Source: Caulobacteraceae bacterium
GTDB lineage: Bacteria > Pseudomonadota > Alphaproteobacteria > Caulobacterales > Caulobacteraceae
Direction: 5' to 3'
Assembly (NCBI GenBank): GCA_003164925.1
Contig: PLRV01000055.1
Location: forward strand, 17,340 to 60,828
Length of the DNA: 43,489 nucleotides
Part shown: positions 10,857 through 33,661 of the stretch, one piece after another
Layout of the letters: each line of letters opens with the position of its first letter
Position numbering within the stretch: the first letter of the stretch is position 1
The notes under the pieces: model-generated
What the model saw: only the letters and a program-made list of their open reading frames with translations
Told to the model about the DNA's origin: nothing
Databases searched by the model: none
Translations under genes and position numbers: made by a program

Positions 10857-11393
10857 CTACTGGTCTTCCTCTTCGGGATGCATGCCCGCCTCGCGGTCCA
10901 CGCCGCCGATCCAACGGTGCGACTGCGGGAGGAATTTCTCGTCGATGAAGCCGAGCCGGCTTTTGAGCATTTTGGCGTGCTCCTCCGTGGGCTCTACGCC
11001 AACCGGGTACTGCTGGGACAAATCCTCGCCAGCCAATACAGCATCGGCCCAGTTCTCCATGAGCCAGCAGTAGGCTTCCAGCGCCGCGTGAGGGTCGGGA
11101 TTGCCTTCCGTCACGAAATAAGCCGTGGGCAAGTCTCCAACCACGACCCACAATTCATCGTCGGGATTGCCGGCAATGGGCCGACCGAACTTCACCAAAA
11201 ACAGGCACAGGATCCCAGGAACGCCCCACGCCAAGTATAAGCGCTCGATTGGGGGCGCCCAACGGAACCCCTGGACGAAGCGCATGGCCCGCTGGGCCTC
11301 CTTGGCGATCAGCGCCGTGTCTTCCTCATCGCCCCCGACGATATGGGGATGAAGCTGAAAACCGGTGATATCAATAGGCTGTTGATCTGACAT
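10857..11393 (-). CDS. Probable immunity protein for the HNH nuclease
   Basis: A 178-residue acidic, soluble protein with no domain I can name for certain. It is rich in tryptophan and acidic residues, with the segment DDELWVVVGDLPTAYFV in the centre and ALEAYCWLMENWADAVL after it. It lies directly downstream of an HNH-nuclease gene in the same direction, the position and character expected of an immunity protein. The ATG at 11393 is preceded by a weak ribosome-binding site; an upstream in-frame extension to 11510 would overlap the nuclease gene and is less likely. A perfect GTTC-N7-GTTC LexA-type box lies 36 bp upstream, so the gene may have its own SOS-inducible promoter. Confidence 0.55.
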   Translation of the reverse strand: MSDQQPIDITGFQLHPHIVGGDEEDTALIAKEAQRAMRFVQGFRWAPPIERLYLAWGVPGILCLFLVKFGRPIAGNPDDELWVVVGDLPTAYFVTEGNPDPHAALEAYCWLMENWADAVLAGEDLSQQYPVGVEPTEEHAKMLKSRLGFIDEKFLPQSHRWIGGVDREAGMHPEEEDQ

Positions 11394-11429
11394 GCGGGGT
11401 CTCGCAACGAGAGCTGAAGCGACGTTATT

Positions 11430-11444
11430 GTTCGTCTTTTGTTC
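11430..11444. promoter_or_regulatory. LexA (SOS) box upstream of probable immunity gene
   Basis: The plus strand reads GTTCGTCTTTTGTTC, a perfect match to the alphaproteobacterial LexA box GTTC-N7-GTTC. It lies between the HNH-nuclease gene and the probable immunity gene. A possible minus-strand -35 element (TTGACG, 11445-11450) touches it, so the box would sit in the promoter spacer where a repressor blocks RNA polymerase. Two GANTC sites (11455-11459 and 11486-11490) lie just upstream. Confidence 0.7.
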
Positions 11445-11478
11445 CGTCAAGTTTGAATCGACGCGTCCAGGACGGCCG

Positions 11479-12261
11479 TCAATCTGATTCTTCGTTGATG
11501 TTAGGTTCACCTATGGGCCGTGGGCCGGGTTGTAGCTGGAGCAGAACGGGCGGATCGGCTTCAGGGTTACCGGGGTCCAAATACTGCGGCCTGACGATTT
11601 GGGGCACGCGGGGTGCGCCGGGTTGGACTCGCCCTCTCAGCCAAGCGCGCTTCGCCCACCGACTGAAGTCGCCATTGGCTATGTGGTGGGCGATGTGCTC
11701 GTCCGGGTGCTTGGGCTCGATATTGGAAAGATCGTGCGCCCCGCCATCCGCGCGGGCGACTTTGTGATGGGCATGATAGCTCCGACCGTCTTCCGTTGTC
11801 GGCCAACTGCGGCCCTCGCGCCTTTCCCACTGCCGCTTGAGCGTGTCGTTGGCCCCAGTGAGGAACAGATGCGCGTCATCCCAAGTGGCCAGGCCGTAGT
11901 CGAGGTGCGCGCCCTGGGCGTTCTGCGGGGTCCAACCTCCAAAATCGGGCTGATCGGTCTGCGGGGCGTCGTCGGATGACGACTCATCCGCATCGGCGGG
12001 ACTGTCATCGTCGTTCGAGGATGCATCGTCATCGTCCTCCGCCGGCGAATCTCCCGGCTGCGCGGCCGGATTGCCCGCGCTCCACGGAGCGCTCGACGAA
12101 CCGATCCCGGTCGGACCAGGATAGGCGCCGCTGGGTGGCGGCGTCAGCCCGAGCAGACCCGATCCGTTTCGAAAATCGCCAGCCATCCAGCCCGTGTCGC
12201 CAAGTGGAAAAGGGCCGGCGGCAGGGGCACCGGAATCACTGCTGAAATCGGCTTGAGCCAT
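11479..12261 (-). CDS. HNH-nuclease domain protein, probable toxin cargo
   Basis: A 260-residue protein with a Gly/Pro/Ser-rich N-terminus, a very acidic Asp/Ser linker (about residues 74-100), and a C-terminal HNH-type nuclease motif: YHAHHKVARADGGAHDLSNI followed by EPKHPDEHIAHH and NGDFSRWAKRAW. This form, with DGG, N-IEPxHPDEHIAHH and a trailing F-RW, is seen in secreted or particle-borne nuclease toxins of polymorphic type. The ATG has a GAGG site 7 bases upstream. It follows the spanin genes in the same direction and is itself followed by a probable immunity gene, so cell lysis would release it. No signal peptide or known toxin-delivery domain is visible. A phage-type DNA-processing HNH enzyme is the main alternative. 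Confidence 0.65.
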   Translation of the reverse strand: MAQADFSSDSGAPAAGPFPLGDTGWMAGDFRNGSGLLGLTPPPSGAYPGPTGIGSSSAPWSAGNPAAQPGDSPAEDDDDASSNDDDSPADADESSSDDAPQTDQPDFGGWTPQNAQGAHLDYGLATWDDAHLFLTGANDTLKRQWERREGRSWPTTEDGRSYHAHHKVARADGGAHDLSNIEPKHPDEHIAHHIANGDFSRWAKRAWLRGRVQPGAPRVPQIVRPQYLDPGNPEADPPVLLQLQPGPRPIGEPNINEESD

Positions 12262-23801: not shown

Positions 23802-25001
23802 TTAGGAGGTGATGCGGCAGGCCATCTGCGGGCGGATGGTCTCGTAGCCGTAGAAGACGTCGATCCGGCAAGGGAAGGCGTCGTTGTTGATGTCGTAGGC
23901 GCGCACGATGCGCATCGACACGCCGTCGTAGACTTCCCGCGCTACGAAATCGACGCCCTTGGGCAGCACCAGATCCGCCGTGGCGAAGGTGAAGGCGTCC
24001 CGGTGGAACGCCATCTCCTGCTCATAGCCGGTGTTGGACGCCCCGGTTACCGTCAGGGCCGCGCTGTTGGCCGGAGAGGCGGTCACGTTCTGCTGGGCGC
24101 CACTGGTGGTGATCGCCGGGCTGATCGGGATGGTCCCGCTTGACCCGCCAAAGGTGGTGTCGGCGGTGCAGACGAACTGCTGCAATTGCTGGGTCACCGC
24201 CTTGGTCTCCGGGTGCACCCGATAAACGCCGGCGATGGTGAACACCGTGCCCCGGGTCATGATCTGGCCGTTGCTCACCCCGCCGATGGTCAGGCTGGAG
24301 CCGGTCTGGCTGGCTCCGGAAACCGTCACGCTCGAGCCCGAGCCGATGTCGCCGTTGGTCTGGGTAGGCACCAGCGGGTTCTCGAACCAGTCAAAGCCGG
24401 CCGTGCGGCCCATGGCGCCCTCGCGGTACTGTTCGCGGATGGCGCTGGAGTCTTGGAACAGGCCCTTGAGCGCATCCACGATGGTGGCCGTTGCCAACGG
24501 CGACAGATGCGCCGTGCGGTTGGCGTCCATCGGCGTCAGGCTGTTGTTCAGCTTGGCCCGTGCCTGCAGATAAGTCAGCAGGGTGTTGGGCGTGGTCCCG
24601 GCTGTGCCGACCTGCTGATAGACATCCATGAACATGTTGAAGGCGTCCGCCTCGAGCGAGGACGCCAGCACCGCCATGGCCGGCTCCAGGATACGGCTGG
24701 AGAAATCGTCCAGCGACAGGGTTAGCTCTGATGAGGAGAAGTTCACGTCCACCCCCTTCTGGGTGGCGATCTGCAGCGACACGCTCTGCTCGGTCACGTC
24801 CTGCGCCGACAGGGTCTTGCCAGTGCGCACCGTGTACTGGTTGGGCAGGCGAATCCTCAGGGTATCGCCGATCTTGGCGCCGGCCTTGGCGAAGCTGTCG
24901 TCGTACTGCCGGTTGATGTTGCCGATGAAGGTCAACTTGTTATGCAGCACGCGCAGCGCTTCGCGGGTGATCTGCTGGGGAGTGAGAAGGGCGTTCGCCA
25001 T
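23802..25001 (-). CDS. Major capsid protein, P22 coat-like
   Basis: A 399-residue coat protein. The N-terminus (ITREALRVLHNKLTFIGNIN, RQYDDSFAKAGAKIGDTLRI, LPNQYTVRTGKTL) and the central FSSSELTLSLDDFSSRILEP follow the P22 gp5-type coat family. An Ig-like or I-domain insertion may be represented by the Ser/Gly/Thr-rich stretch (about residues 215-325), and the C-terminus returns to the HK97-like core (ADLVLPKGVDFVAREVYDGV). The scaffold gene ends 3 bp upstream. Confidence 0.85.
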   Translation of the reverse strand: MANALLTPQQITREALRVLHNKLTFIGNINRQYDDSFAKAGAKIGDTLRIRLPNQYTVRTGKTLSAQDVTEQSVSLQIATQKGVDVNFSSSELTLSLDDFSSRILEPAMAVLASSLEADAFNMFMDVYQQVGTAGTTPNTLLTYLQARAKLNNSLTPMDANRTAHLSPLATATIVDALKGLFQDSSAIREQYREGAMGRTAGFDWFENPLVPTQTNGDIGSGSSVTVSGASQTGSSLTIGGVSNGQIMTRGTVFTIAGVYRVHPETKAVTQQLQQFVCTADTTFGGSSGTIPISPAITTSGAQQNVTASPANSAALTVTGASNTGYEQEMAFHRDAFTFATADLVLPKGVDFVAREVYDGVSMRIVRAYDINNDAFPCRIDVFYGYETIRPQMACRITS

Positions 25002-25004
25002 GGT

Positions 25005-25853
25005 CTATCGAGCCTTTTTGCGGAGCTGGCCGCGCCGGTGGCGCATCCAGTCATCGGTGGACATGCGGTTGGGGTCGTGCGGAGCCGAGCCGCCGCCGCC
25101 CACCTGGATGGCGGGGCGCACGGCCTGAACCTGGGCCAGCTTCTGGCCGGCGGCTTGGGCCTGGGCGGCTTGATGGCCGCGCCAGGCGTGATGCAGCAGA
25201 AGGATCAGCCGGGGATCGCTGATGGCCTCGATCTCCTCGGGCCTCAGTCCCTGACTGCTGGCGAACTGCGCCAGCCGGGCGGCGTGCTGCGGCGACCACT
25301 CGGGCAGATGCTCGGCCAGCACGGCCTTGGCGTGTTCGACCTGCTGGGCGTGCTGGCGCTGCTGCTCGAAGGCCTGGGCCTGCTGTTTGTGAGCGAGTCG
25401 GCTGACGGCCAGTTCATGGGCCTGTCGCATCTGGAAAAGCTGATGCAGCAGTTGCTGGGCCGCGGCCGGATTCTGCTGGTGCATCGCCGGCCAGTTCTGC
25501 TGCTGTAGCTGCCCGATCTGATTACCCAGCGCTACGATGTGGGCGCAGTCGGCCAGGTTTTCGCCGTGCGCCTGGGCCGCCTGCTGCAGGGCCTGATGGC
25601 CCGCCTCCAGCGCGCGTTGGCTCATGGCCTGGACTTGGGTCTTGCGGGTGTAGTCCGCATGGCGCATCAGCGCGCCCTTCACGCCCGCCGGCACGGTATA
25701 GGTCCGTCCCTCGTGCTGGACCTGAACCGGCTCGTCCGGGTCCTGCTCGTCCTGATCCGGATCGGGCGCCTCGGCGGCGTCGGTCTCCTCGGGCGCGCCA
25801 TTGGCATAGGCGTCCGCGCCCGCATCCGGCTGCGCCGGCGGGTTCTGTCTCAT
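25005..25853 (-). CDS. Scaffolding protein
   Basis: A 282-residue, highly charged, Gln/Ala-rich helical protein. An acidic N-terminus (about residues 10-45) is followed by a short ordered segment (RTYTVPAGVKGALMRHADYT), long coiled-coil-like helices, and a basic C-terminus (DDWMRHRRGQLRKKAR), which would bind coat as in P22 gp8. Position directly upstream of coat and length support the call, although scaffold proteins conserve little sequence. Confidence 0.72.
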   Translation of the reverse strand: MRQNPPAQPDAGADAYANGAPEETDAAEAPDPDQDEQDPDEPVQVQHEGRTYTVPAGVKGALMRHADYTRKTQVQAMSQRALEAGHQALQQAAQAHGENLADCAHIVALGNQIGQLQQQNWPAMHQQNPAAAQQLLHQLFQMRQAHELAVSRLAHKQQAQAFEQQRQHAQQVEHAKAVLAEHLPEWSPQHAARLAQFASSQGLRPEEIEAISDPRLILLLHHAWRGHQAAQAQAAGQKLAQVQAVRPAIQVGGGGSAPHDPNRMSTDDWMRHRRGQLRKKAR

Positions 25854-25907: not shown

Positions 25908-26891
25908 TCAAAGACCCTGAACGCCGATCTCTTGCAGCGAGCGAGCGATGGGCAGGCCCCAGCCCTTTTCCCCCTGCGCCCTGGCATCATTCAGGGCATC
26001 CTCCAGCGCGAACGGGTCGTGCTTGACCAGCACCTCGATCAGGGCCTTAGCCTGGGCGAGGTCCTTATCGCGCTTCATTCGACCCGAAGCGTCGCGCCGT
26101 TGGGCCAGGATCAATTTATGCACGGCGAAGCGGGCCGGTTGGGGGACGTTCACCAGAACGCCCGCGCCCCACAGGGCCACGGTTCGCACAGGCTCATCAA
26201 TCAACCACGCCAGATACTGCAAGGGCGCGGCGCCGGCGCTCAACTGCGCGAGCGCAACAGGATTGAAATCCTCTCGGGTTCGCGTGGGCGTGACGAGATC
26301 AACAAGATAGCCGCCCGCCGTCCGAAACCGCGAGGGCGGCGCTTTCGGCTTCAGTTGCGGGACGCCTTCAAAGGTCGGATCGGCGCGCCGCAGGATGGTC
26401 TCCAGACGTTCGGGAGGCTCCGCCGTGAGTGCAAGGCTTGCGGTCGCCAGATCGACATCGCCGGTCATCCGCGTGGGCGATGGCAGGCGGCTTCCCACCA
26501 GCGGCTCGCTCACCAGATAGGCCGCCGTGCCGACCAAAACGGCGCCGGCCCTGAACAGCCCGGCGTGGGCCAAGACGTCCAAGATGGCGCCCATGGCGCG
26601 GTCGGGTCCCGATAGCCCTTGTCGGCGCGAAAAAGATACGATGCGACGACGTTGCATGGCCAGTTCAGCGCCGATCTGAAGAGACTTGGCGCATTCCTCG
26701 GCCTCTGAATCCCCGCTCTTTCCGATGAACCGGTCAATTCGGCCGGAACCCACAGGCGTCTTCGCATAGATATATTCAGCGCCGTTCGCGGTGCGTCGGT
26801 ACACCGAACCCGCGACAGGCGCCGTTTCCACCTGCTGCAGAAGGTCGGCAAACAGAGTCTGCACGGCGGGTGGAATGGCGCTGGGCTTCAT
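25908..26891 (-). CDS. Nucleotidyltransferase-fold protein (GSU2403-like)
   Basis: A protein of about 327 residues inserted between portal and scaffold. It fits the GSU2403-type nucleotidyltransferase-fold family: an N-terminal GSVYRRTANGAEYIYAKTPV and DRFIGKSGDSEAEECAKSLQ, then the catalytic-type core LVGTAAYLVSEPL and MTGDVDLAT, with a DxD pair, and a C-terminal helical part. It is not a virion protein by sequence; it is probably cargo with its own promoter, which carries two tandem palindromes. The ATG at 26891 falls inside the first palindrome; a TTG at 26936 is an alternative start. Substrate and role (toxin, antitoxin or defence) are unknown. Confidence 0.7.
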   Translation of the reverse strand: MKPSAIPPAVQTLFADLLQQVETAPVAGSVYRRTANGAEYIYAKTPVGSGRIDRFIGKSGDSEAEECAKSLQIGAELAMQRRRIVSFSRRQGLSGPDRAMGAILDVLAHAGLFRAGAVLVGTAAYLVSEPLVGSRLPSPTRMTGDVDLATASLALTAEPPERLETILRRADPTFEGVPQLKPKAPPSRFRTAGGYLVDLVTPTRTREDFNPVALAQLSAGAAPLQYLAWLIDEPVRTVALWGAGVLVNVPQPARFAVHKLILAQRRDASGRMKRDKDLAQAKALIEVLVKHDPFALEDALNDARAQGEKGWGLPIARSLQEIGVQGL

Positions 26892-26957
26892 ACAGACAAA
26901 TTTCTCATTTCTGTCTGTATATTCATTTACAGACAAATTTTCAATATCTGTCTGTAT
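26890..26957. repeat. Two tandem palindromes at the nucleotidyltransferase promoter
   Basis: Two copies of an inverted repeat with a 13-base spacer: ATACAGACA (26890-26898) with TGTCTGTAT (26912-26920), and TACAGACA (26928-26935) with TGTCTGTA (26949-26956). The copies are about 37-38 bp apart and nearly identical, and the patch is very AT-rich in a GC-rich region. They overlap the start of the gene at 25908-26891 and look like operators for a dimeric regulator, probably autoregulation. Confidence 0.8.
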
Positions 26958-27002: not shown

Positions 27003-28871
27003 CTAGCCGGCTGGCGTCTGCAGCTTCTGCACAGCTTCCATCCGGTCGGTTCCCGCGCGGAACTGGTCGATGTCCAGCTTCTGCTGCTGCAGGTCTCGCT
27101 CGCCCTGCAGGGCCGCAACCTGCTGTTGCAGGGCCTGCACCTGCTGGGCCTGGGCGGCGGCCTGGGGATTGCCGCCTTGGCCGCCCTGAAGTTGCGGCGG
27201 CAACAGCACCTTCAGTCGCTCGGCGATCTCGTCGGCGCCCGGCCAATCGAGGTTCTTGGCCAGCAAGTCGCCGAGCACCGGCGCGGCCTCGGGGAAGGCC
27301 TGGATCAGGGCGATCATCTGGCTGGCCGCCTCCTCGCGCCGGGTGGTGAAGCTGGGGCCCGCCTCCACCGTCAGGTCGTATTTACCGGCGGTCAGATCGA
27401 ACACCGCCTGCATCGCCTGGACAGGGCCGGCAGCCTGGTTCTGGTTCACCGCCACGACCTGGGGCTCGCCGCCTGGGCCCAGCACCCGCAGCATGCGCGG
27501 GGTGGAATACACGCGGGGGATTAAGTCGATCATGATCCGGCCCGCGTGGCGGATGGCGCGCGACAGGTTGTCGATGAAGTGGAAGGTCGAAACGTCCCCT
27601 TCCCTCTGCCGCGCCAGGATCGCCCGCCCGGAGTTCTCGTTGGAGGCCGCCCCCAGCGACGCGTCGAACAGACCCAGGATCGCCTTGATGTCGTCCGAGG
27701 CGTTCATCGCCTCCTGCAGCGCCCCGGCCGGCACGCCGGCGAAGGCCTGCCGTTCGGGCGCCGTGGGCCCGTCGTATTCGATATAGGCGTGGCTGTCGGT
27801 ATTGGCCGTCGCCCACTTGTCCGCATCGGATTTGAACGCGCCCTTCGGCCCGATAAAGGGCGCGCGCGGCGCCAAGGCCACCAGCTCGGTGGAGGTGGTG
27901 CGCCAGTAGTTGAACATCCGCTGCGGGTCCTTGGCGTCGCGCACCAGCGAGCGCAGATGCCGCTTGCCCTCCAGGAACACCTCGTCGCCGAACACCGGCA
28001 CGATCGGGATGAACTTGCCGGCCCAGTCGACGGTGTCGATCACCTCCGCCCCGGTCAGCACATGCTGCTTGACCGCATAGCTCAGGGCTTCGCGAGGTTG
28101 CCCGATCACGCTCACGCCTGAGCTATCGAATAGGGCCTTGTTCTTGGCGTACTCGTCCGCCGCGATCATTTCACCGTTGGACAGGGCCAGGATCTGCCGG
28201 CGCACCTCGTGGCGCACCCAGTATTCGGTCGCCATCACGCGCTCGTCGTCCACCCACGGCGCCGCCAGGGCGCCATAGCCCAGCCCGTCCCAGTCGACGG
28301 CGTCCGCGCCCTTGTATTGCCGCGCGAACCGGCTCTTGGGCATCAGGTCGACGACAAAGGCGATGTTCCAGTCCGACGAATCCGCCGCCACCGAATAGGG
28401 GTCGGCGTAGATTGAGAACGGATTGGCCACCCGCTGAATGACGATGTCCTGGTCGAAACTGTCGTCGGTCGCGTAGCGGGTGTTGATGCGGAAATAGCCC
28501 AGGCCCGAGGTCACCGCTGCGTCCAGCGCGGTGTCATAGGCCACGTCCGCGTCCGAACAGTATTCGATGTTGCGGATCAGGCCGTTGTAGATTTCCGCCA
28601 CCTGCGGTCCCGCCGCATCGTCCGCCGGATGCACCTTGATCGCCGGCCGGTTCTGACGGGCGTCGTTGACCACCTGGCGGATAAAGGCCGGCAAGCGGTT
28701 GATGGTCAGGCAAGGCCGCGCGTCCAGCTCGCGGGCCCGACGCACCTCCTGGGGCCACTGCTCTCCCAGCCGCGCGAAACGGATGTCGTCCAGCGCCTCG
28801 GACCTCTGCTCGGCCTCGTGGGCCACGCACAGCTCAAAAGCGTCCTTGGCCTCTTTCAGAAGGTCGTCCAT
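27003..28871 (-). CDS. Portal protein, P22-like
   Basis: A 622-residue portal protein. Family features include the N-terminal GEQWPQEVRRARELDARPCL followed by TINRLPAFIRQVVNDARQNR, then the DAAVTSGLGYFRINTRYATD segment, IVPVFGDEVFLEGKRHL, and the long helix near NENSGRAILARQREGDVSTF. The C-terminus is a Gln-rich coiled coil (about residues 560-615), comparable in position to the P22 portal barrel. It forms the dodecameric DNA channel. Its upstream region has a promoter with LexA and GANTC sites (29046-29110). Confidence 0.88.
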   Translation of the reverse strand: MDDLLKEAKDAFELCVAHEAEQRSEALDDIRFARLGEQWPQEVRRARELDARPCLTINRLPAFIRQVVNDARQNRPAIKVHPADDAAGPQVAEIYNGLIRNIEYCSDADVAYDTALDAAVTSGLGYFRINTRYATDDSFDQDIVIQRVANPFSIYADPYSVAADSSDWNIAFVVDLMPKSRFARQYKGADAVDWDGLGYGALAAPWVDDERVMATEYWVRHEVRRQILALSNGEMIAADEYAKNKALFDSSGVSVIGQPREALSYAVKQHVLTGAEVIDTVDWAGKFIPIVPVFGDEVFLEGKRHLRSLVRDAKDPQRMFNYWRTTSTELVALAPRAPFIGPKGAFKSDADKWATANTDSHAYIEYDGPTAPERQAFAGVPAGALQEAMNASDDIKAILGLFDASLGAASNENSGRAILARQREGDVSTFHFIDNLSRAIRHAGRIMIDLIPRVYSTPRMLRVLGPGGEPQVVAVNQNQAAGPVQAMQAVFDLTAGKYDLTVEAGPSFTTRREEAASQMIALIQAFPEAAPVLGDLLAKNLDWPGADEIAERLKVLLPPQLQGGQGGNPQAAAQAQQVQALQQQVAALQGERDLQQQKLDIDQFRAGTDRMEAVQKLQTPAG

Positions 28872-29045
28872 GCGCCATCCATGTAAGGTGCGTCCCGGCC
28901 GCGTCCCGCCTTACGGGAATACGCCGCTCACGGCCGTGCGAGGGGCCGGGACGATGGGGTGAGCAGCGCCGAACGCCCGAAGCTTGCTGCGGGCAGGGCC
29001 GGAACCTCCAGCGGCGCGCCGGGCGCATCTGTCTGGAATAGGAGA
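28872..29045 (-). other. Leader of the portal operon
   Basis: About 170 bp between the candidate promoter and the portal start codon. It is GC-rich, contains no open gene and no strong terminator that I can see. A long leader of this kind could hold a post-transcriptional control or an antitermination site, but I see no specific structure. Confidence 0.35.
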
Positions 29046-29074
29046 ATAATGGTCGAGCCTGCCTGACTCGTCAA
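29046..29074 (-). promoter_or_regulatory. Sigma-70-like promoter of the portal/head operon with GANTC site
   Basis: On the minus strand a -35 element TTGACG (29069-29074) and a -10 element CATTAT (29046-29051) are separated by 17 bases. A GAGTC site, a GANTC methylation sequence, occupies 29065-29069 and touches the -35 box. Two more GANTC sites lie upstream at 29097-29101 and 29106-29110. GcrA is known to act at promoters with GANTC sites near -35/-10, and the element encodes a GcrA-like protein. Confidence 0.65.
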
Positions 29075-29080
29075 GACAAT

Positions 29081-29095
29081 GTTCTTGTTTTGTTC
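29081..29095. promoter_or_regulatory. LexA (SOS) box upstream of the portal operon
   Basis: The plus strand reads GTTCTTGTTTTGTTC, a perfect match to the alphaproteobacterial LexA box GTTC-N7-GTTC. It ends 6 bp from the -35 element of the portal promoter. The extended sequence (TGTTC, then TTTTGTTC) is shared with the box at 11430-11444. LexA cleavage after DNA damage would release the head operon. Confidence 0.75.
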
Positions 29096-29152
29096 AGACT
29101 CCTGGGACTCTCGCGAAGCGCCCCAGTGGAGCCTTGGGCGTCTTCGCTGTCC

Positions 29153-29458
29153 TTACCGTCCTGGCTTCAGAATACTGCGCCACATGGCCGTGAGTATTAG
29201 GCCGCCGCAATAGATCAACGCGATGTCCGTCAGCGGGCTCGCGCTGATTGGAAGCGACCACCACGGGAAACTCGAAAAAACGAGCGTCGTCAGCACGATA
29301 ATCGTTCCCACGTTCAGCGCGTCGTCGAGCCATTGTCTGGCTCTGTGCTCAACGCCCCGAATACGCCGAACAGCCATCAGGATGGTGGCGACGACAACAC
29401 AGACGATCACAGTCCACGCATCGAAAGACGTCAGATGCGTGCCATCGTGAAGAGACAA
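29153..29458 (-). CDS. Small membrane protein, unknown function
   Basis: A 101-residue protein with about three hydrophobic segments (AWTVIVCVVVATILMA, VGTIIVLTTLVFSSF and ALIYCGGLILTAMW) and a basic C-terminus. It starts 3 bp after the stop of another small membrane protein, forming a pair between terminase and portal. It resembles holins in size and layout, but a holin is already present in the lysis cassette; a superinfection-exclusion role is equally possible. I do not recognise the family. Confidence 0.55.
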   Translation of the reverse strand: MSLHDGTHLTSFDAWTVIVCVVVATILMAVRRIRGVEHRARQWLDDALNVGTIIVLTTLVFSSFPWWSLPISASPLTDIALIYCGGLILTAMWRSILKPGR

Positions 29459-29461
29459 AAC

Positions 29462-29677
29462 CTAAAGCGCCTTGCGCTGACGATCCTGGCGAGCGACCAC
29501 TAAAAGCGCAACAAAACCAGCGGCCGCAGCGCCACCCGTTTCGATGATGTCGGCCACGGTCAAGGCTGGAACAACCGAAGCCATGTGCAAGGTCGAGGTC
29601 CATGCGGCGTGCGTAAGCGCGCCAAACGCGCCCGCGCCGAGGAAGGCCCCGGCAAGGAAGGTTTTAAGAATATGCAT
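29462..29677 (-). CDS. Very small membrane protein, unknown function
   Basis: A 71-residue protein with two hydrophobic segments (ILKTFLAGAFLGAGAFGAL and AAAAGFVALLVVARQ) and a charged tail. The ATG at 29677 has an excellent ribosome-binding site (GGAGGG, 6 bases upstream), which strongly supports translation. Coupled with the 101-residue membrane protein downstream. The two could act together at the inner membrane. Confidence 0.6.
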   Translation of the reverse strand: MHILKTFLAGAFLGAGAFGALTHAAWTSTLHMASVVPALTVADIIETGGAAAAGFVALLVVARQDRQRKAL

Positions 29678-29718
29678 ATTCAGCCCTCCTTCTGAGGTTG
29701 GAATCGGGCGCAAATACG

Positions 29719-29809
29719 GACCCCATGGGGTCTCGCATTTAAGGCGTTAACGCGCCTCAAACAATCCCTCAAAACGCGACTGATTGGCAGATACTCCACA
29801 TGGTGGAGT
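29719..29809. other. Hairpin-rich gap between terminase and the small membrane proteins
   Basis: This 150-bp gap holds a perfect 14-base palindrome GACCCCATGGGGTC (29719-29732), a CGTTAACG palindrome (29745-29752), and a 7-bp stem with a 3-base loop (ACTCCAC, 29793-29799; GTGGAGT, 29803-29809) just after the TerL stop. None is followed by a T-run on the minus strand. They may be RNA-processing or regulator-binding sites; a GAATC site lies at 29701-29705. Confidence 0.4.
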
Positions 29810-29828
29810 TGCGCCAGCATACAGCCCC

Positions 29829-31103
29829 CTAACCCATCCATCCTCCCCCGCCCGTACGCCCCACCGTCCGGGCCTTACGCGCGGCCTGCGGCTCCTCGTA
29901 GGCCGTCATCAGGTAGCGCATGGCGTCGGCCGGATGGCTGGTCCAGTCGTGCAGCGGCCCCAGCGCCACGCGCCGCTTGGGGTCGCTCCGCTCGCGATAG
30001 TCGCGCAGGGCCCTAAGGCCTGCCTCGCAGCGCGCCGCGTCGATCCACGCGCGCGGCAACAGCCGCCGCACCGCCTCAATGCCGTCGGCCACGCCGATGC
30101 GCGGCGCGATGCGCACCGCAAAGCCCAGGCCCTCCAGCATCTCCGCCCGGCTCTTGCCCGAGCCCAGTTCCCGCGCCCGCGCATCGTGCGGCAAGATCAG
30201 CGGCGCATACAGGTACGGGCGCTCGCGCAGGGCCCGGGCGTACCAGTCGAGCGCCACGCCGCTGTTTTCGATGTAGTCAATCAGCCGGATCTCGCGGCCC
30301 ACAAACTGCGCCAGCCAGATCGCCGTGGCGTCCGCTATGCCCAGATCGAAGGCGGCATGCACCTCCGCCGCCGGATCGTGCGCCACGCGGCCGATCCGGC
30401 CCTCCCCTTCGGCCGTGGTCAGGGCGGCGGCGTAATAGGCGCCGGCGATGGCCGCATCGAAGCTGGTCTCCATCTCCCGCGCATATTCGTCGGCCGACAG
30501 CTCCGCCTTCAGCGCCGCCAGCTCGGCCGGCGCCAACAGGCCCGTTTGCGAGGCCTTCAGCCGCAGGGCGAACCAGTCCGGCGCGGCTTCCGCCCGTTCA
30601 TACAGCTCCCAAAAGGCGTTTCGCCCCTTGGGCGTGCCGATGAAGGCCGCCCAACCCTGCCGGTCGGCCAGGGCCGGACGGATCACCTCGGACCAGGCGC
30701 GCGGATCCATATCGGCGAACTCGTCCAGCACGACCCCATCCAAGTAGATTCCCCGCAAACGGTTATAATTATCAGCCCCATAGAGCCTGATCCGCCCGCC
30801 GTTGGGCAGATCGACCCTTAGCTCCGACACGCTCACCGCCACGCCGGGGATCGGCGCGGTGTATTGCTTCAGATAGCTCCAGGCCACGTCCTTGGCTTGG
30901 CTGGTGAAGGGCGCCACATAGGCGAAGCGAGGCTCGGGCCGCTCGCACACCAACGCCGCCCGGATCAGATCGTTGATGGCGGCGACGGTCTTGCCCGCCC
31001 GCCGATGCGCCACGATACAGGCCCAGCGCTGGCGGCGCTGATGGAAGGCCGAGAAGGCCGGCCTGGGCGCATAGGGGATCAGGACTTTGTGGGATCGAGC
31101 CAT
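29829..31103 (-). CDS. Terminase large subunit
   Basis: The DNA-packaging motor and headful nuclease, 424 residues. The ATPase has a Walker A VAHRRAGKT (ending about residue 39) and a Walker B VVLDEFAD (about residues 124-131), with the coupling segment FIGTPKGRNAFWELY. The nuclease domain shows AAFDLGIADATAIWL and a C-terminal DWTSHPADAMRYL that supply the acidic metal-binding residues. The start overlaps the probable small terminase gene by 25 bp. Confidence 0.92.
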   Translation of the reverse strand: MARSHKVLIPYAPRPAFSAFHQRRQRWACIVAHRRAGKTVAAINDLIRAALVCERPEPRFAYVAPFTSQAKDVAWSYLKQYTAPIPGVAVSVSELRVDLPNGGRIRLYGADNYNRLRGIYLDGVVLDEFADMDPRAWSEVIRPALADRQGWAAFIGTPKGRNAFWELYERAEAAPDWFALRLKASQTGLLAPAELAALKAELSADEYAREMETSFDAAIAGAYYAAALTTAEGEGRIGRVAHDPAAEVHAAFDLGIADATAIWLAQFVGREIRLIDYIENSGVALDWYARALRERPYLYAPLILPHDARARELGSGKSRAEMLEGLGFAVRIAPRIGVADGIEAVRRLLPRAWIDAARCEAGLRALRDYRERSDPKRRVALGPLHDWTSHPADAMRYLMTAYEEPQAARKARTVGRTGGGGWMG

Positions 31104-31408
31104 GTGAATGTCAGACTGACGCCTTGTCCATCTTCGGGATTGTCCCCGCCAACCCGCACCGCCGGCGCCGCGCGCCCATACGCCCGGTCGATCAGGGCAT
31201 TGGCCGCCGACACCCGCACCGCCTCGGAATTGGCGTTCTGCATGAGGCGCTCCAGTTCCTTGAGCGCGTCGAGCGCATACCCCTGCGCGGCCTGGCGGAA
31301 AGCGGTGGCGGGATCGGCGACGTCGGGTTTTTCAAGCGGCTGCACGGGTTCGGCCGACGCCTGCAACGCCGTCACGGTCGCGCTCCGCCGCGGGCTGGCG
31401 GTGGGCAT
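31079..31408 (-). CDS. Probable terminase small subunit
   Basis: A 109-residue helical protein immediately upstream of and overlapping the large terminase. The segment AQGYALDALKELERLMQNAN followed by EAVRVSAANALIDRAYGR is typical of small phage proteins in this position that recognise DNA for packaging. No separate helix-turn-helix is visible at the N-terminus, which is mostly linker-like. Position is the main evidence. Confidence 0.6.
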   Translation of the reverse strand: MPTASPRRSATVTALQASAEPVQPLEKPDVADPATAFRQAAQGYALDALKELERLMQNANSEAVRVSAANALIDRAYGRAAPAVRVGGDNPEDGQGVSLTFTWLDPTKS

Positions 31409-31580
31409 GGGAGGTCCTTGAGTATTGGGGGTGCGGATGCCGGATGCGCGCCTGGGTTCAGGCGGTCTCGACGGGGGTTTGGAGAGATGAAGGAAGGCTA
31501 GTGACGGCTGCCTGAGTTGGCAAGGTGTTGGTGTTTTTTGCGTGACCTTTGCCTGACCCCTAACATCTCTGTTCGTCGTT
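31409..31580 (-). other. Gap upstream of the terminase genes
   Basis: About 170 bp with no open gene. It follows a shortened toxin-like gene on the same strand, so it may be what remains of the rest of that module or a promoter region for the terminases. I see no clear promoter or terminator. Confidence 0.3.
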
Positions 31581-31826
31581 TCAGCTCCGCAAATCTATAA
31601 CTGCACCCACAACGGCTGGGTTCGAATAATCTTCGCGAGCGGCCTTCCATTTCGCCCATTCGAACGCGCGTTGTGGATCAGATTCCCAAAAATATGCGCC
31701 TGGACCGAGCCAATCAAAATCTCGCTCGCTTTGAAGAAGCTCGATTTCGCCATTTACAGCTCTCTCGGCGAGAGTACGGTCACAGCCGTGGTATCCGAGC
31801 ACGAATGACGTGGCGAGACGACTCAA
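31581..31826 (-). pseudogene. Shortened YHG-type (ADP-ribosyltransferase-like) gene
   Basis: An 81-residue product beginning with the pattern FVLGYHGCDRTLAERAVNGE, then LLQSERDFDWLGPGAYFWES and WAKWKA. This matches the N-terminal half of a widespread small-protein family of about 150 or more residues that looks ADP-ribosyltransferase-like. Here it stops right after GAVIDLRS, where the family normally continues, and the next 170 bp contain no continuation. It overlaps the preceding small gene by 4 bp. Probably a remnant of a toxin-like module; a functional short form cannot be excluded. Confidence 0.5.
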
Positions 31827-32017
31827 GCGGCGCTTTTTGCCTTCTTAGATGCCCCACCAAACTCAACGCGCAGAGCACCCTTTCGGGTATAAATTCCCTC
31901 GTCAATCAGCGCCTTCCGAGCTTCAGCCTTGGTAGCGGCATACTTATCAGTATGCCCCTTAATTAAGGCGCGGATTTCGTCGTCCGGTTTGTCAGTTGAT
32001 CGTCGATTGCACGACAA
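31823..32017 (-). CDS. Small partner protein of the YHG-type gene
   Basis: A 64-residue basic protein with the pattern IRALIKGHTDKYAATKAEAR and KALIDEGIYTRKGALRVEFG. Short proteins of this pattern are typically encoded just before the YHG-type gene, as here, with a 4-bp ATGA overlap, suggesting a toxin-antitoxin-like pair. There is no ATG; the reading begins at a TTG without a clear ribosome-binding site, so the 5' end may have been lost by recombination. The base composition is lower in GC than the surroundings. Confidence 0.5.
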   Translation of the reverse strand: MSCNRRSTDKPDDEIRALIKGHTDKYAATKAEARKALIDEGIYTRKGALRVEFGGASKKAKSAA

Positions 32018-32048
32018 AGACCGGGGCAGCGCAACTTTGCAGACGCCC

Positions 32049-32600
32049 TCACCTCAACCCCCGCTCCCGCGCGATCGCCCCCAGCGCTTCCATCAGCGCC
32101 TTGGTGTTGGCCAGCCGCGCCGAGCCGCCCGGCGCAATCGAGTTGATCGTGCGGCCCTGCCCGGCCACCAGCCGGAGCACCCACACGGCCCGCCCTGTCC
32201 GGGCCAACGTTTCCCACTGCCGCAGCTTCTCCGCCCGAAACGCGCGTAGTTCGGCGAAGCCTTCCGCCCCCGCCTCGCTGAACCCGCGCATCGGCGCGCC
32301 GAAATCGCGGTTCAGGTTGGACTTGGGACCCGCGCACAGCGTCTCGAAACAGCGGCGGTACATCATGCCCGCCTCATATTCCGGCCGCTCCAGCCCGCCC
32401 TGCTCGAACAGGGTCTGCAGGCCGTCGCGCGAGGTCACGCACAGCCTACCGTTCGCCTGAACCACCGCCTCGCCCCGCTCCCGCGCCAGGGCCGCGGTCT
32501 GCGCCAGCCCCTCGGCATGCGCGCGCGCCTGCGCCCGCTCGGCCGTCAGCCGCGCCAGATCCTGGGCGCTCAAACCCCTTCCCTTACGCTTGCCCGCCAT
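32049..32600 (-). CDS. Phage protein, possible DUF6456-like late regulator
   Basis: A 183-residue basic, helical protein starting 2 bp after the GcrA-like gene. After a charged N-terminal helix it has CVTSRDGLQTLFEQGGLERP, EYEAGMMYRRCFETLCAG, and a C-terminal VLRLVAGQGRTINSIA followed by LMEALGAIARERGL. The last pattern resembles the DUF6456-type regions seen in alphaproteobacterial phage and GTA activators, but I hold this loosely. Its place at the head of the late genes fits an activator or antiterminator. Confidence 0.45.
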   Translation of the reverse strand: MAGKRKGRGLSAQDLARLTAERAQARAHAEGLAQTAALARERGEAVVQANGRLCVTSRDGLQTLFEQGGLERPEYEAGMMYRRCFETLCAGPKSNLNRDFGAPMRGFSEAGAEGFAELRAFRAEKLRQWETLARTGRAVWVLRLVAGQGRTINSIAPGGSARLANTKALMEALGAIARERGLR

Positions 32601-32602
32601 GC

Positions 32603-33109
32603 TCAAGCCGCCCTGCGCGCGATGGCCACGATGGCTTCCAGATCGGGCTCGCTTAGGGCGCTGTTGGCCTGGGCCATCAGGGCGCGGTGCGGCGGGCAAT
32701 AGGTGGCCCCGCCGGTGGGGGCGCCGCAGCACATCTGCCGGCCCGGACTATCCGGTTCGCCCAGGGGATACGCGCATTGGCCCGTCTGGCGCTCGGTCCA
32801 CAGCATGGGGCGGCTGTCCGCCTCGACCTCTCGCAGTGGCGGCAGGGGGCCGTCCGGCAGGGGCTTGAACCACCGGATCGGGCCGGCGCGAGCCTTGGGA
32901 AAACTGCGCGCGGCGGGCGCGGCGGGCGGCGACGCGGCGGGCTTGGTCCAGCCCAGGCGCTGGGCCTTGCCCAGCACGGCGTTGCGCGTGGGCGCGCCGC
33001 TACCCAAGGCGCGGTGCAGGGCCTGGGCGGTCTGCGCCGCGCTCAGGCCTTCGCGCACATAGAACCGGTTGAGCAGGCCGACAGCCTGGTCCGTCCACAC
33101 AAAAGACAT
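32603..33109 (-). CDS. GcrA-like cell-cycle regulator encoded by the element
   Basis: A 168-residue protein with the two-part layout of GcrA. The N-terminus (FVWTDQAVGLLNRFYVREGL, SAAQTAQALHR, PTRNAVLGKAQRLGW) corresponds to the GcrA helix-turn-helix, which begins WTDERVELLK and contains SRNAVIGKVHRLGL. The C-terminus (TGQCAYPLGEPDSPGRQMCC, GAPTGGATYCPPH) corresponds to the RNA-polymerase sigma-contacting CRWPLGDP and CG-P-PYC-H region. Chromosomal GcrA works with sigma-70 at GANTC-methylated promoters. This is the first gene of the leftward run and is divergent from the XRE repressor, so it is placed as an early activator of the late genes. Confidence 0.85.
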   Translation of the reverse strand: MSFVWTDQAVGLLNRFYVREGLSAAQTAQALHRALGSGAPTRNAVLGKAQRLGWTKPAASPPAAPAARSFPKARAGPIRWFKPLPDGPLPPLREVEADSRPMLWTERQTGQCAYPLGEPDSPGRQMCCGAPTGGATYCPPHRALMAQANSALSEPDLEAIVAIARRAA

Positions 33110-33204
33110 GCGGGGTCGCGCTCCGAAAGCGGGGTCAAAAGGATGGATTTGAGGCGCCGGCGGCTGGCCCTCCTCGAGGGCGCTGGCGGTCGGGACCGGA
33201 AGGG

Positions 33205-33265
33205 CTTGCCTTCAGTCTATTTGTATACTATGCATTATTGCATGGCAAGCAATTTTGCATGTGGC
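33205..33265. promoter_or_regulatory. Divergent promoter/operator region, gcrA-like and XRE repressor
   Basis: A compact AT-rich patch between the two divergent genes. It holds the inverted repeat ATGCATTATTGCAT (33230-33243) and a second short one, GCAATTTTGC (33249-33258). Minus-strand TTGCTT with TAGTAT at 16 bases is a candidate promoter for the gcrA-like gene and would be covered by both repeats. The decamer ATGCAAAATT (minus strand, 33251-33260) recurs at 33734-33743 on the plus strand before the gene at 33767, so one regulator, probably the XRE protein, may bind both sites. Confidence 0.55.
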
Positions 33266-33304
33266 GCCGTTTTCTCTCGGCCCCCAAGGGGAGCATGATC
33301 CAGC

Positions 33305-33661
33305 ATGCCCAAGAAGGCCCGCCCCCATCCCAAACCCGCCCGCCGGCCCACCTTTATCCGCGCCTGGCGCAAGCATCGCGGCCTGACCCTGACCCAATTG
33401 GCTGACCGCCTGGCCACCGAGCTAGAGGTGGATATCTCCGAGGGCCAGATCTCTCGCATAGAGCGGGGGGAAACGCCCTATTCCCAAGACATTTTGGAGG
33501 CCATCGCCGCCGCCTTGCGCTGCGAGCCGGCCGACCTTCTGGTGCGCGATCCCACCGCCACGGACGCCATTTGGAGCCTGTGGGACACCTTGAAGCCCGT
33601 CGAACGGATCCAGGCGGTGGAAATCCTCAAGACCCTGCGTCGCACGGGAACCGAAGACTGA
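33305..33661 (+). CDS. XRE-family phage repressor-like protein
   Basis: A 118-residue DNA-binding protein with a Cro/CI-type helix-turn-helix: LTLTQLADRLATEL, ISEGQISRIERGETPYSQDI and ILEAIAAALRCEPADLLVRD. The C-terminal 35 residues are too short for a self-cleaving CI peptidase domain, so it would not respond directly to RecA. It is divergent from the gcrA-like gene across an operator region and is the obvious lysogeny-type repressor. A GGGGAG site lies 11 bases before the ATG. Confidence 0.85.
   Translation: MPKKARPHPKPARRPTFIRAWRKHRGLTLTQLADRLATELEVDISEGQISRIERGETPYSQDILEAIAAALRCEPADLLVRDPTATDAIWSLWDTLKPVERIQAVEILKTLRRTGTED

Follow-up and report, generated by a model that had tools for sequence, protein, structure and literature searches.

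Which signals switch on the head genes of a phage-like element in Caulobacteraceae, and do they belong to the element or to its host? The question is raised by a 65-bp promoter region located between the portal gene and the small ORFs downstream of the terminase, in an element carried by a Caulobacteraceae bacterium. We analysed the stretch of 43,489 nucleotides that contains it (hereafter the window), together with the 3.4-Mb genome of the same bacterium and the portal loci of related phages. Judging from sequence comparisons, the region is very probably an SOS-inducible late promoter that host LexA would repress.

The portal promoter and its operon

The sites named in the original prediction are all exactly in place: TTGACG-N17-CATTAT, a perfect GTTC-N7-GTTC box, and GANTC at 29065, 29097 and 29106 (table 1). 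The core (29074-29046, minus strand) reads toward the P22-type portal gene (28871-27003), and from the position of the -10 hexamer the portal transcript would start near 29039. A scan of 28500-33500 for sigma-70-like promoters found the portal promoter as its sole match; shuffled sequences gave a mean of 0.7 matches, so that a match per se is ordinary. At the position of the -10, relatives carry TAGGAT, TAGTAT, CATCAT and similar hexamers. The box (29081-29095) lies on the upstream side of the -35, 6 bp away from it. The portal promoter thus has what marks a LexA promoter of alphaproteobacteria, a GTTC-N7-GTTC box at a sigma-70 core.

On the minus strand, the terminase large subunit is followed by two small ORFs, the portal, a nucleotidyltransferase, the scaffold, the coat and further virion genes. 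Portal, scaffold and coat therefore stand in the order of a P22-type head module, with the nucleotidyltransferase between the first two. The late genes of P22-type prophages are typically under a Q-type antiterminator. A reading of the element as a gene transfer agent was disfavoured, given that the portal is absent from the three congeners examined and that the element has endolysin and tail-type genes.

Table 1. Coordinates of the features discussed in the text (positions in the window; a dot marks sites given without a strand)
Feature	Position	Strand	Remarks
-10 hexamer CATTAT	29046..29051	-	portal promoter; from the sigma-70-like scan
-35 hexamer TTGACG	29069..29074	-	17-nt spacer to CATTAT
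LexA-type box GTTCTTGTTTTGTTC	29081..29095	.	exact match; GAAC-N7-GAAC on the promoter strand
GANTC site TTGACGAGTC	29065..29069	.	shares the last base of the -35; recurs in the window clade
GANTC site	29097..29101	.	at this position only in the window and L070
GANTC site	29106..29110	.	at this position only in the window and L070
Portal transcript 5' leader (predicted)	28872..29039	-	about 168 nt, deduced from the -10 hexamer and the start of the portal
Structured RNA element in the leader	28887..28955	-	conserved; outer helix, inner helix, invariant GCCG-UGAG-CGGC hairpin
Portal protein	27003..28871	-	P22_portal PF16510; family match
Nucleotidyltransferase	25908..26936	-	NTP_transf_8; between portal and scaffold
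Head scaffolding protein	25005..25853	-	open frame
P22-type coat protein	23802..25001	-	family match
Terminase large subunit	29829..31103	-	upstream of the promoter
101-aa ORF	29153..29458	-	membrane-like by eye; between terminase and promoter; no family match
GcrA-family protein	32603..33109	-	PF07750, E 4e-15; matches GcrA 7ye1
XRE/Cro-type HTH regulator	33305..33661	+	divergent from the GcrA-like gene
Second LexA-type promoter TTGACG-N17-TAACGT	11422..11450	-	box GAACAAAAGACGAAC (11430-11444) inside the spacer

A structured RNA ahead of the portal

The predicted leader contains a structured RNA element that stands directly upstream of the portal in eleven sequences of the window clade, counting the window and including L166 and L170. 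Across its 16 aligned pairs, 98.9% of the cells are paired and three pairs have changed on both sides; slid controls reached at most 54%. The GCCG/CGGC stem of the hairpin is invariant, and its loop becomes UGCG in L074. An Rfam search with the element gave no match. In L071 and L166 the RNA stays beside the portal though one has to go 0.65 and about 1.4 kb upstream, respectively, to reach a complete promoter, and for this reason it is probably part of the portal mRNA and not of the promoter.

In the portal leaders of the sister clade (for example L084, L099 and L111), another hairpin, CCCGCCGGGCTCGCTCGCGCGGGC, with a run of T behind it, precedes the portal. Its form resembles that of a terminator or attenuator, placed between the LexA promoter and the portal.

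Conservation of the LexA-type box

Four GTTC-N7-GTTC boxes were found in the window against a shuffle mean of 0.98 (at least four in 3 of 100 shuffles); the whole genome has 100, and the reversed control occurs there 89 times. The window has fewer GANTC sites than expected (87 versus 164), with a higher density in its presumed non-coding DNA (13 in 3777 nt). The original prediction held that three GANTC sites should fall together far less often than this by chance, which proved weakly true: a pre-chosen non-coding stretch of 65 bp holds at least three with a probability of 0.0016, but some triplet this tight is expected with a probability of 0.07 among non-coding sites and 0.22 anywhere in the window. 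With placement tests borderline and GANTC rare in the promoters of the sister clade, the cluster was rejected as strong stand-alone evidence. Since both the box counts and the GANTC triplet lie near chance, the evidence must come from relatives. The LexA box alone is hardly beyond chance; it is conservation that makes the box at 29081-29095 credible.

Our collection consisted of 37 relatives, the best 80 of 400 from a second search and the window itself, that is, 118 portal loci. At least 400 bp upstream of the portal was available for 102 of them, and 94 non-redundant loci were left once eight had been removed for an identity of 95% or more over 300 bp or longer, among these L070, a contig carrying the same stretch as the window. 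Portal relatives in named genomes are mostly (27/37) titled Phenylobacterium, Caulobacter or Caulobacteraceae. The lists of relatives are non-exhaustive, as L166 and L170, whose portals share 85-91% identity with that of the window, were found only through a promoter-pattern search.

A perfect box was found within 400 bp upstream of the portal in 37 of the 94 loci. The same 400 bp contained the reversed control in 3/94 and ten other controls (other spacers, permuted words) in 0-2/94. Promoters made up of a box and a TTG -35, in either of the layouts described below, were then counted in DNA extending as far as 4 kb beyond the start of the portal: 100 lie on the portal strand and one on the opposite strand, against a mean of 0.05 in 20 mononucleotide shuffles. 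At least one such promoter occurs in 65/94 loci and one within 420 bp of the portal in 35/94. Besides the portal, some of these promoters precede the terminase operon, variable cargo genes or the scaffold. Of the site types that the original prediction proposed to compare in relatives, the LexA box is conserved beyond chance; among the three GANTC sites only that at 29065 recurs, in the window clade.

LexA-type control of the portal loci is not universal, because 57/94 loci lack a perfect box within 400 bp of the portal and 29/94 lack a promoter with box and core in the DNA scanned, with the same 4-kb limit. In eight of these 29 (L051, L057, L061, L118, L132, L133, L137 and L144), the terminase ends less than 60 bp from the portal, and four others (L080, L106, L112 and L148) have a box with one mismatch near it. 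L049 and L145 have the terminase equally close, yet a promoter with box and core farther upstream.

The promoters come in two layouts. In the window clade the order is GAAC-N7-GAAC-N6-TTGAC, and when only the box was searched for upstream of window-clade portals, TTGAC or TTGCC stood exactly 6 nt beyond eight of nine distinct boxes. In the sister clade GTTC-N7-GTTC directly abuts TTGAC, a mirror image of the former. That opposite orientations of the box have been kept in two clades argues for selection on a presumed LexA binding over simple inheritance. A strict pattern of the window form matched only 1/300 genomes of the host's family, that of the window itself, and this form is therefore rare in sequenced hosts. 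A short sister-form pattern matched at least 120 stretches, many of which we judged, rather than calculated, to be chance matches for a pattern of 15 letters; L171-L247, which derive from that scan, entered no promoter count and were used solely in the leader-motif scan.

The same box at SOS genes of the host

GTTCN7GTTC is the Caulobacter LexA motif as given in the accessible part of PMC12700426. The genome of the window has a single LexA_DNA_bind match, the chromosomal lexA, with a box upstream. We inspected the neighbours of 40 of the 100 box sites in the genome, ten of the 40 having been picked for T-rich spacers. Nine sites adjoin genes that NCBIfam names Ssb, UvrA, UvrB, RuvC, ImuA, RadC, YifB (here called ComM), MraZ and DnaE, with UvrA (a partial frame), ImuA and MraZ scoring under the model cut-offs; lexA is the tenth. 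Most of the remaining inspected sites adjoin ordinary genes not recognised as SOS genes. The genome that carries the portal promoter thus has this box at its own lexA and SOS genes as well.

The layouts also recur in the host. At ssb the sequence is GAAC-N7-GAAC-A-TTGACA with TAGGGT 16 nt on, that is, a box just 5' of the -35 in the orientation of the window. At uvrA and comM, TTG follows GTTC-N7-GTTC immediately, as in the sister clade, with no clear -10. The portal promoter differs from these host promoters in driving phage structural genes instead of repair genes, and in a gap of 6 bp between box and -35 versus 0-1 bp.

Taken with its conservation in many relatives, the recurrence of the box at host SOS genes supports this much of the original prediction: the head operon (portal, scaffold and coat) has a sigma-70-type promoter and, at it, a box like those of host LexA. 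This LexA part of the reading is well supported, as far as comparison of sequences goes. In the lysogen, host LexA on the box (at about -56 to -42) would keep RNA polymerase off TTGACG/CATTAT. Upon DNA damage, RecA-stimulated self-cleavage of LexA would free the promoter, and sigma-70 polymerase would then transcribe the portal, scaffold and coat genes, a dedicated phage repressor being unneeded for this step. In relatives with LexA-type promoters also before terminase, scaffold or cargo genes, late transcription may be restarted under one host signal. LexA binding, repression and induction are predicted here from the sites, and the strength of repression is unsure, as the box of the window lies upstream of the -35 and not over the core.

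GANTC sites and GcrA

The original prediction further proposed that CcrM methylation and a GcrA-like protein of the element could set the timing of the promoter. The element does encode a GcrA-family protein, whose alignment with GcrA covers the DNA-binding as well as the sigma-binding part, and the host genome has its own gcrA and a CcrM-like ORF with a RAMA domain. Moreover, a methylatable GANTC (29065-29069) overlaps the -35 of the portal promoter. On these grounds a double gate may be imagined, in which removal of LexA permits transcription and GcrA of the phage or the host, on the methylated GANTC by the -35, recruits sigma-70 polymerase, so that the head genes would need both DNA damage and a particular methylation state to come on.

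Of 17 distinct window-form promoters, that of the window included, 11 have this GANTC next to the -35, as TTGACGASTC with N varying between G and C, and one further promoter with it, beyond the 11/17, was seen in L080, which has the one-mismatch box. Five phages with the GcrA-like gene at the same place (the window and L071, L073, L078 and L080, 46-68% identical to the window's) all show the site, in each of the seven promoters seen for them. The consulted part of PMC7987155 describes a comparable link between structural genes of a Caulobacteraceae prophage and GcrA, the Bresu_0058-0084 operon of Brevundimonas subvibrioides; the latter is expressed in a GcrA-dependent way, whereas the link of GcrA to the portal promoter is a candidate one.

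Other observations weigh against the double gate. GANTC at the positions of 29097 and 29106 is absent from every distinct relative aligned, and among 84 distinct promoters of the sister form a GANTC lies within 49 nt of the -35 in just one. In the window-form promoters the adjoining GGCA is kept in 15/17, above GANTC itself, so that conservation at this spot does not single out the methylation site. Of the 17, three (L165, L166 and L170) came from a search requiring CRGGC, and without them the counts are 12/14 for GGCA and 8/14 for GANTC. The extended motif YGAKTCK does not fit 29065, 29097 or 29106 (the latter two read by eye), and fits only 6/11 of the recurrent sites, the misfits being that of the window and four of the other ten. 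This motif is quoted in PMC7987155, where the Brevundimonas passage, as far as consulted, goes on "No preference". In the phage genomes covered by the accessible part of PMC9437464, GcrA sites show no positional asymmetry.

The distribution of the gene is also mixed. GcrA was found in 6/32 records of relatives (L071, L073, L078, L080, L166 and L118). L118 has no promoter with box and core and no GANTC within 600 bp of its portal. Among members of the window clade judged to lack a GcrA-like gene in the visible region, L081 has the GANTC and L076 does not, while L074, L075, L165 and L170 end too early or are too fragmentary for a call. The L166 copy was not counted as an equivalent gene, being a distant one, 28% identical and sitting elsewhere in its record. 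L324 has a copy 30% identical and no promoter with box and core in the DNA scanned, and a collection scan with the GcrA-like protein gave one distant match (35%) that was left unused. These loci are too few to decide on an association between gene and site, and descent from a single ancestral promoter could account for the pattern.

The proteins that the timing proposal calls for are present (element GcrA, host gcrA and CcrM-like ORF). Timing by CcrM and GcrA is itself weakly supported, in view of the two sites missing from relatives, the extended motif and the sister clade. The double gate is conceivable but unlikely. Distinctly unlikely is also that late genes are activated by phage GcrA wherever a LexA-gated promoter has a CcrM site over its -35, making up an AND gate of damage and methylation. 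With the promoter read as LexA-repressed, the recurrent GANTC by the -35 might allow GcrA, from the host or the phage copy, to strengthen it; such assistance is possible, and unnecessary for the main reading. Any link to the cell-cycle methylation clock is tentative, and particle production could only be supposed to be tied to chromosome replication.

Two further readings of the portal promoter

The portal might be transcribed mainly by read-through from the terminase, with the LexA promoter a minor, vestigial or accessory one inside a possibly defective element. Terminase and portal lie on the same strand only 957 bp apart, no match to a tyrosine integrase was found on the 77-kb contig of the element (15 were found elsewhere in the genome), and the three congeners examined are missing the portal gene. 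We regard this as very unlikely, given that box and -35 are kept across relatives with diverged flanks, that the portal and coat genes have intact frames matching their families over nearly the full length, and that the scaffold frame is open. It is highly improbable that the box is read by a phage repressor using the same sequence in place of host LexA: phages frequently employ their own repressor and the element encodes an XRE/Cro-type regulator, but the genome has a single LexA_DNA_bind match, the SOS genes of the host carry this very box, and a pattern scan found none in the intergenic region between the XRE and GcrA-like genes (33110-33304), where an XRE operator would be expected.

As an observation apart, this intergenic region has a stretch in common with the L071 record (TTGCTTGCCATGCAATAATGCATA), and a lysogeny switch is possible there.

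Comparison with known systems

The host-LexA reading of the portal promoter has its nearest known counterpart in P3 of the Bacillus phage GIL01, a late promoter repressed by LexA and gp7 and activated by gp6, as described in the consulted part of PMC6182141. In both cases a LexA-type box stands in a capsid-gene promoter; in GIL01 host LexA sits on the late capsid/lysis promoter, from which damage releases it. As gp6 does there, the GcrA-like protein might activate here. Unlike GIL01, with its tandem boxes, co-repressor gp7 and LexA-like activator, the portal promoter has one alpha-type GTTC-N7-GTTC box and belongs to P22-type phages, 28/94 loci have two or more such promoters, and both the phylum and the candidate activator differ. 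A phage LexA-like activator of the gp6 type was not found, the sole LexA_DNA_bind match of the genome being the chromosomal lexA. Little credit can be given to an AND gate in the form of a GIL01-like pair of repressor and activator, with a captured cell-cycle regulator as the activator. In our best reading, the portal promoter would extend the LexA-repressed late promoters, known from GIL01 P3, with a new variant.

In the Caulobacter gene transfer agent, particle genes are likewise under a LexA-fold repressor; the available part of PMC9632790 describes control by RogA/GafYZ, RogA being a separate LexA-like repressor that acts through activators, whereas the LexA-type boxes studied here stand at the structural promoter itself. 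An open-licence literature search returned no title dealing with LexA boxes at promoters of structural genes in phages of Caulobacteraceae, which does not prove their absence from the literature. In coliphage 186, CTX and SPC32H, what lies under the box is an antirepressor or another early gene, not a portal/coat operon. These phages use host LexA and so couple their development to damage (cited in PMC9437464, as far as consulted), a coupling that the portal promoter would share.

Based on our data, a phage family found mostly in Caulobacteraceae has promoters with host-LexA boxes, in two layouts that mirror each other, repeated ahead of structural genes, terminase and cargo. Control of a prophage by the host repressor thereby becomes testable in relatives of Caulobacter. 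Additionally, the natural variants with and without GANTC, and with and without phage GcrA, are suited to ask whether phages read the methylation clock of the host.

A second LexA-type promoter and cargo genes

The window has a second LexA-type promoter (11450-11422), upstream of a 178-aa gene (10857-11393), which fits an SOS-controlled element of more than one operon. Within 11422-12261 (minus strand), this promoter stands behind a protein with a weak HNH match that adjoins the 178-aa gene, and the two possibly form a pair of the nuclease/immunity type. By eye, the N-terminus of the protein with the HNH match resembles those of cargo proteins of L071 and L075. A collection scan with a 227-aa neighbour protein confirmed no relative.

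Variable cargo genes with LexA-type promoters ahead of them were seen between terminase and portal in L050, L085, L086, L102, L103, L105, L111, L113 and others. Pfam assigned no function to the ten cargo proteins searched (seven without a match, two with weak matches and one matching a DUF). Several cargo proteins have common N-terminal motifs by eye (e.g., FSVPDPLGDAWDE or DWQRTRALQ) and differing C-termini.

Two further repeats were noted in the window. Stretches of 26 nt at 11389-11414 and 33105-33130 are 85% identical and lie at the start codons of the 178-aa and the GcrA-like genes. Two palindromic 30-mers, TACAGACA and TGTCTGTA (26891-26957), are 87% alike and spaced 37 bp from start to start; they lie at the start of the nucleotidyltransferase and are possible operators of that gene.
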